Positions 2,202 to 2,666 of a stretch of 34,158 nucleotides of DNA are shown piece after piece; within the stretch, counting starts at the first letter, position 1, and each line of letters opens with the position of its first letter. The notes below the pieces were generated by a model that was not told where the DNA came from, did not search any database, and saw only the letters and a list, made by a program, of their open reading frames with translations. Source of the stretch: a bacterium (GTDB lineage: Bacteria; UBP14; UBA6098; 4484-93); assembly GCA_021158465.1 (NCBI GenBank), contig JAGGUN010000043.1:1-34158 (forward strand), written 5' to 3'. The position numbers and the translations under genes were made by a program.

Positions 2202-2666
2202 TTGCTTTCTGTTTTTCTGCTTTCGGTGGGGATAACTGTTGTGGCTGGTGATGCCTTACATTCGGTTTATAAGTGGGTTATCTCGGCGATCTTTCCGTTG
2301 AGTATATCGATTGCCCTCGGGATGAGGTACAACGGCACAGGAGGCAAGACGCAGGATGGAACTGAAAGGGATATGAGGCTCAAGGAGGTTAATTCTGGCT
2401 ATGCGATGCTAATGGGAGGTTCGAAAGGCTCTGACCCGAAGGTTGGGTTTCTTGTAGCCAGCTCACTCCAGGGTGTCCTGCACAAGGCGGTGATTGAGAT
2501 CAACGATGGTGGAACTGTTGCGGCAGGTGTTACCCCAGTTACAATGGGTATCACATCTGTTCTGGGGAGGTTTACATTCACAGGGAATCGCCCGTTCTTC
2601 TTTGTGATCTGTGACAACTTGGCGAATAGTCTGCTCTTTATGTGGGCAGTTGTCGAACCGGAGTAG
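2202..2666 (+). pseudogene. Internally deleted serpin (serine protease inhibitor family) remnant or mini-serpin
   Basis: A 154-codon open frame containing both ends of a serpin without the middle. Residues 32-36 (PLSIS) followed by ALGMRYNGTGGKT match the serpin helix-B signature 'SPLSIS.AL.M.YNGA.G.T'. Residues 92-101 (VLHKAVIEIN), the hinge GGTVAAGV (103-110), NRPFFF (129-134) and LLFM..VVEP (144-153) match the strand 5A, reactive-centre loop and C-terminal strands. About 230 residues expected between these blocks in a 370-400-aa serpin are absent. By comparison with alpha-1-antitrypsin as I remember it, the loop has normal length and P1-P1' would be Thr118-Ser119. The hinge Glu is Asp, and a conserved Gly near the C-terminus is Trp (residue 148). 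The only in-frame start before the homology is TTG at 2202 with no clear ribosome site. Twelve bases separate it from the downstream protease gene. Without the sheet-A core it should not work as a normal serpin, so I call it a pseudogene, although the frame is intact and a promoter lies upstream. Confidence 0.8.

Follow-up and report, generated by a model that had tools for sequence, protein, structure and literature searches.

An open frame holding only the two ends of a serpin gene: most likely a multi-lesion pseudogene

The window analyzed here is the whole of contig G000:C54 (34,158 bp), one of 54 contigs in a 2.04 Mb assembly that is 97.6% complete. Between an rtcB gene and a peptidase gene it carries, just as a preliminary description of this DNA had it, an open frame of 154 codons at 2202..2666; the frame lies on the plus strand and runs from a TTG start to a TAG stop. 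The features of the locus are as follows.

618..2066, minus strand: rtcB, the upstream neighbor and synteny anchor with contig G001:C95 of a sister genome
2156..2183, plus strand: sigma-70-like promoter TTGACT-16-TATTAT 5' of the remnant, of putative function (consensus scan)
2184..2201, plus strand: scar of lesion 1, at which ~42 nt of sister G001:C95 are absent (alignment)
2202..2666, plus strand: serpin remnant, a 154-codon open frame whose TAG stop is the usual serpin end
2202..2288, plus strand: remainder of the signal-peptide h- and c-regions and the residues before helix A, LLSVFLLSVGITVVAGDALHSVYKWVISA versus LLSVFLFSMGVAGVAGDTLHSVDEEIISA in the sister
2288..2289, plus strand: lesion 2 junction, 66 nt (22 codons, helix A) absent relative to the sister
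2289..2351, plus strand: helix B block, IFPLSISIALGMRYNGTGGKT, with Ser changed to Phe in SPLS
2352..2468, plus strand: helix C/D to the start of strand 2A (profile alignment)
around 2381-2382, plus strand: lesion 3, uncertain, a possible 15-nt loss (profile alignment)
2468..2469, plus strand: lesion 4 junction, ~212 core positions (profile 134-345) absent
2469..2663, plus strand: strand 5A, hinge (DGGTVAAGVT), reactive-center loop and C-terminal strands, with the invariant Gly of LFMG changed to Trp (codon 2643-2645)
2679..6110, plus strand: C25 (gingipain-type) peptidase (Pfam), open, carrying a type IX secretion-type tail; a likely ribosome-binding site of its own precedes it

The peptidase matches Pfam Peptidase_C25 at 207.4 bits and Por_Secre_tail at 25.2 bits, the latter just below its cut-off. 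Farther along the window, positions 7563-20672 are taken up by one uninterrupted frame of 4369 codons, in which diverged repeats that look Ig-like by eye follow one another in a long row; it has a gliding-motility/T9SS-like C-terminal end, and its real start probably lies downstream of the listed GTG.

The frame is a serpin by descent, as judged from profile comparisons. Pfam Serpin (PF00079, MEROPS I4) matches it in two stretches (66.7 bits, E 2.9e-18), with residues 89-153 corresponding to positions 306-370 of the 370 in the profile. Against a 411-position profile derived from 23 full-length serpins in related genomes, both end blocks are significant: residues 30-89 align with positions 69-133 and residues 90-154 with positions 346-410. 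The profile matches bear out what the preliminary description had recognized: helix B, strand 5A, the hinge and the C-terminal strands are present, and the reactive loop has an ordinary length. The ~30 residues between helix B and strand 5A (~51-88), which had been called unrecognizable, are in fact helix C/D and the beginning of strand 2A (EVNSGYAMLMGGSKGSDPKVGFLVASSL, compared with, for example, EVNSAYSSLLNALKSQDKKVELLVANSL). A serpin hinge typically has Glu at P17, Gly at P15, Thr or Ser at P14 and small residues at P12-P9. The remnant retains Gly P15, Thr P14, Ala P12 and Ala P11, and differs at P17 (E to D), P13 (E to V) and P10 (A to G). Absent is the full core of ~350-400 residues with a sheet A able to accept the loop; ~212 of the 411 profile positions are gone, together with helix A. 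A profile search found no further serpin match in the window's genome.

The only congener compared, G001, shares this neighborhood at 94% DNA identity over window positions 1-1651. Beside its rtcB lies a serpin 5' end at the same locus as the remnant, comprising the promoter, the Shine-Dalgarno sequence GAGGGGG, the start ATGATGATG, the signal peptide MMMRSLFGIVLLSVFLFSMGVAGVAG, helix A and helix B. The promoter motif TTGACT...TATTAT also precedes this intact start in the alignment, there with a 17-nt spacer. The sister's serpin frame is open to the contig end, just beyond 'NGAAGKTQ' after helix B. Over its sequenced part the orthologue shows no damage, and its intactness beyond helix B is assumed. 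The search for a full-length serpin in sister genomes that the preliminary description had proposed yielded an intact 5' part beside rtcB, up to the contig end; the remainder was not found elsewhere in G001. Stops or frameshifts, which that description had taken as the signs of decay to be sought in sister genomes, do not occur in this one: the only sister is intact in its 5' part, and the broken copy is that of the window. From the sister's rtcB (G001:C95, 8577-9608), the first ~138 residues at the N terminus seem to have been lost relative to window 618-2066; homology ends at residue 139, with a new 'MVHLSQKEL' start, through either gene truncation or an assembly fault.

Comparison with the sister and with the relatives' profile reveals several separate lesions. 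Lesion 1 removed the ~42 nt that held GAGGGGG, the start codon and the charged signal-peptide n-region. The TTG at 2202 is directly preceded by an in-frame TGA (2199-2201) and has no good ribosome-binding site. Because the TGA lies immediately before it and the sister's Shine-Dalgarno sequence and ATG lie further 5', the 154-codon frame begins inside the old signal peptide, and 2202, earlier given as the frame's start, is no real gene start. At lesion 2, the sister has 83 nt between the flanking anchors and the window 17 nt. Lesion 3 may have cost five residues before 'EVN', a place that is length-variable and hence uncertain. The core positions lost at lesion 4 include the greater part of sheet A and large portions of sheets B and C. 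The single recent in-frame internal deletion proposed earlier is too simple, since at least three deletions are needed. Simple slippage between direct repeats was considered as a source and rejected: in the alignment no repeat pair flanks the 66-nt deletion, and the repeats within the remnant are short and few. Assembly could in principle have collapsed or misjoined a full-length serpin, the window being one contig of a 54-contig metagenomic draft. Misassembly does not, however, produce several separate lesions together with substitutions at conserved sites, and the nearly complete genome holds no other serpin fragments; we regard an artifact as scarcely credible.

The substitution pattern points to relaxed constraint. 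Over the 49 codons shared with the sister, which differ at about 20 sites, dN is 0.146 and dS 0.162, so the comparison of rates suggested earlier gives a ratio of about 0.9; from this small sample, constraint is relaxed, with dN/dS near 1. For rtcB in the same genome pair the ratio is 0.17 (Fisher p 0.02 versus the remnant), and three secreted C25 peptidases compared between these genomes give 0.09-0.13. When those three peptidases are cut into 626 windows, each 49 codons long, no such window reaches both the non-synonymous count and the non-synonymous share of the remnant. Synonymous divergence from the sister is itself uneven, at about 0.2 in rtcB (618-1650) and 0.43-0.64 in the three secreted peptidases (L067-L072).

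Conserved serpin positions have also been lost. The remnant is changed at 15 of 40, whereas the 23 full-length relatives are changed at 0-9 and the sister at none of 14 testable. Alignment may account for a few of the 15: residues 22 and 29 are poorly aligned near the lost helix A, and residue 89 sits where the big deletion joins. Clear changes at sites where 23 of 23 relatives agree include Ser to Phe in the helix-B SPxS motif and Gly to Trp in LFMG. With 69.5 bits, the remnant's C-terminal block ranks last among 24 sequences (the others score 77.9-114.1), and its helix-B block, at 39.3, is second lowest.

Together, the comparison with the sister, the loss of the translation start, changes at conserved sites and a dN/dS close to 1 support one of the two readings first offered, a decaying gene that is still open. 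We conclude that this is very probably a multi-lesion serpin pseudogene, its open frame a leftover rather than a new tiny inhibitor. The genus ancestor would have carried a normal secreted serpin of ~400 residues adjoining rtcB. In the window's lineage, one deletion took the start codon along with the ribosome-binding site and the n-region of the signal peptide. Another took helix A, about 212 core residues went in one or more further deletions, and substitutions gathered under little constraint. The comparisons show the homology, the lesions, the missing start and the relaxed substitution pattern; the order of events we infer, and likewise that the remnant now yields no protein product. The promoter is probably still active, and its transcript would run into the C25 gene 12 nt downstream, leaving the remnant at most as leader DNA.

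A counterpoint is that the remnant has no internal stops or frameshifts, that the 66-nt deletion and the net core loss both keep the frame, and that the usual stop is retained. Of random point changes here, 2.9% create a stop, and at 3-10% neutral divergence an estimated 26-67% of such remnants would be stop-free. Two in-frame losses would arise by chance about once in nine, which multiplied by 0.26-0.67 gives a few percent. By this estimate the open frame is unlikely, yet it is not striking, since the feature was picked for being open. Most likely, the frame stayed open partly by luck. Selection could instead have kept the remnant, devoid of serpin-like function, as a translated or stop-poor leader that spares the C25 gene transcriptional polarity. 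Its stop lies only 12 nt from the C25 ATG, the sole promoter-like site found on the plus strand of 2060-2760 precedes it, and the open frame survived two in-frame losses. However, with the original translation start gone, ordinary coupling would be weak, and the C25 gene seems to own a Shine-Dalgarno sequence (AAAGGG). We consider a leader function very improbable as an account of the locus by itself; it could hold alongside the pseudogene reading and is no distinct alternative to it, and a weak pull to stay open may have acted.

The other reading offered at the outset was a functional miniature protein, exported or periplasmic, with translation beginning at the TTG or further inside the frame, whose loop, without sheet A, would act as a competitive inhibitor or decoy, perhaps of the neighboring C25 peptidase. 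The frame is open to its natural stop, the hinge and loop are of normal length, promoter elements are retained and a peptidase gene adjoins. Against this, the start codon, ribosome-binding site and charged n-region are gone, dN/dS is about 0.9 and conserved residues are altered, including the LFMG Gly. Of the checks proposed earlier, the profile search gave the significant serpin match described above, and a single-sequence AlphaFold2 model gave no confident fold (mean pLDDT 39.4, pTM 0.24), which is weak evidence at most. Sheet A is established as a requirement for protease trapping by serpins. A working mini-serpin would contradict that requirement for inhibition, and nothing here gives it positive support.

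Nor is the adjacency to a C25 gene shared with other serpins of the class, none of which has homologues of the window's rtcB or C25 alongside; the neighbors therefore give no clue to a conserved function. C25 matches occur in all 17 genomes of the phylum, at 4 to 15 per genome, and a functional serpin-C25 pair was rejected as a candidate for want of any conserved pairing. Searching GTDB r220 contigs for congeners through the C25 peptidase returned one distant relative only, in a WOR-3 MAG (37% identity), with no serpin alongside, and viral contigs held no relatives. Going by this nearest named relative of the peptidase alone, the window's lineage probably lies close to candidate division WOR-3. 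Weighing these points, we judge a functional miniature inhibitor very improbable.

The pseudogene reading carries a caution, in that recognizable domain ends in an open frame may still mark a decaying gene; one sister genome and counts of conserved residues go far toward settling such cases. Full-length serpins of the class (e.g., G002:C110, G005:C90, G015:C351 and G003:C33) and the sister's 5' end share with the remnant a homologous signal peptide and helix B, and the full-length proteins are also homologous to it in helix C/D, the first part of strand 2A, strand 5A, the hinge, the reactive loop and the C-terminal strands. The class serpins keep the ~370-residue core and the sister its translation start, whereas in the window the start, helix A and about 212 positions of the core are gone. 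Within the phylum (17 genomes), 12 of 12 full serpins have the core, in frames of 405-532 aa.

A survey of 389 genomes found serpin matches in 95. Nearly all of these have full length, and a few are partial or contain stops; no second example of the two-ended form was seen, which also argues against a functional mini-serpin. A search of the open-access literature with a limited set of terms likewise found no description of this architecture. Serpin ORFs that are merely short do have a precedent in Spi1C, a 214-aa serpin from a marine metagenome (uncultured bacterium), encoded on a 1128-bp insert, related by its authors to partial I4 serpins and reported to inhibit trypsin and chymotrypsin (PMC3225930). 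That published activity speaks for a mini-serpin; Spi1C is longer than the remnant, and we liken the two by description, as short serpin ORFs. Among the surveyed genomes, G068:C12:34352-34918 is a serpin sequence with seven internal stops. Two partial serpins lie away from contig ends, G148:C1:1642520-1642750 (L065; profile 5-82, in a 93-aa frame) and G207:C124:46945-47091 (L066; profile 322-370, in a 137-aa frame). All three are probably also remnants, and none was seen to have both ends in one open frame. Remnants of ordinary serpin genes thus occur elsewhere in the survey, and only here have we seen both ends of the serpin preserved in a single open frame.
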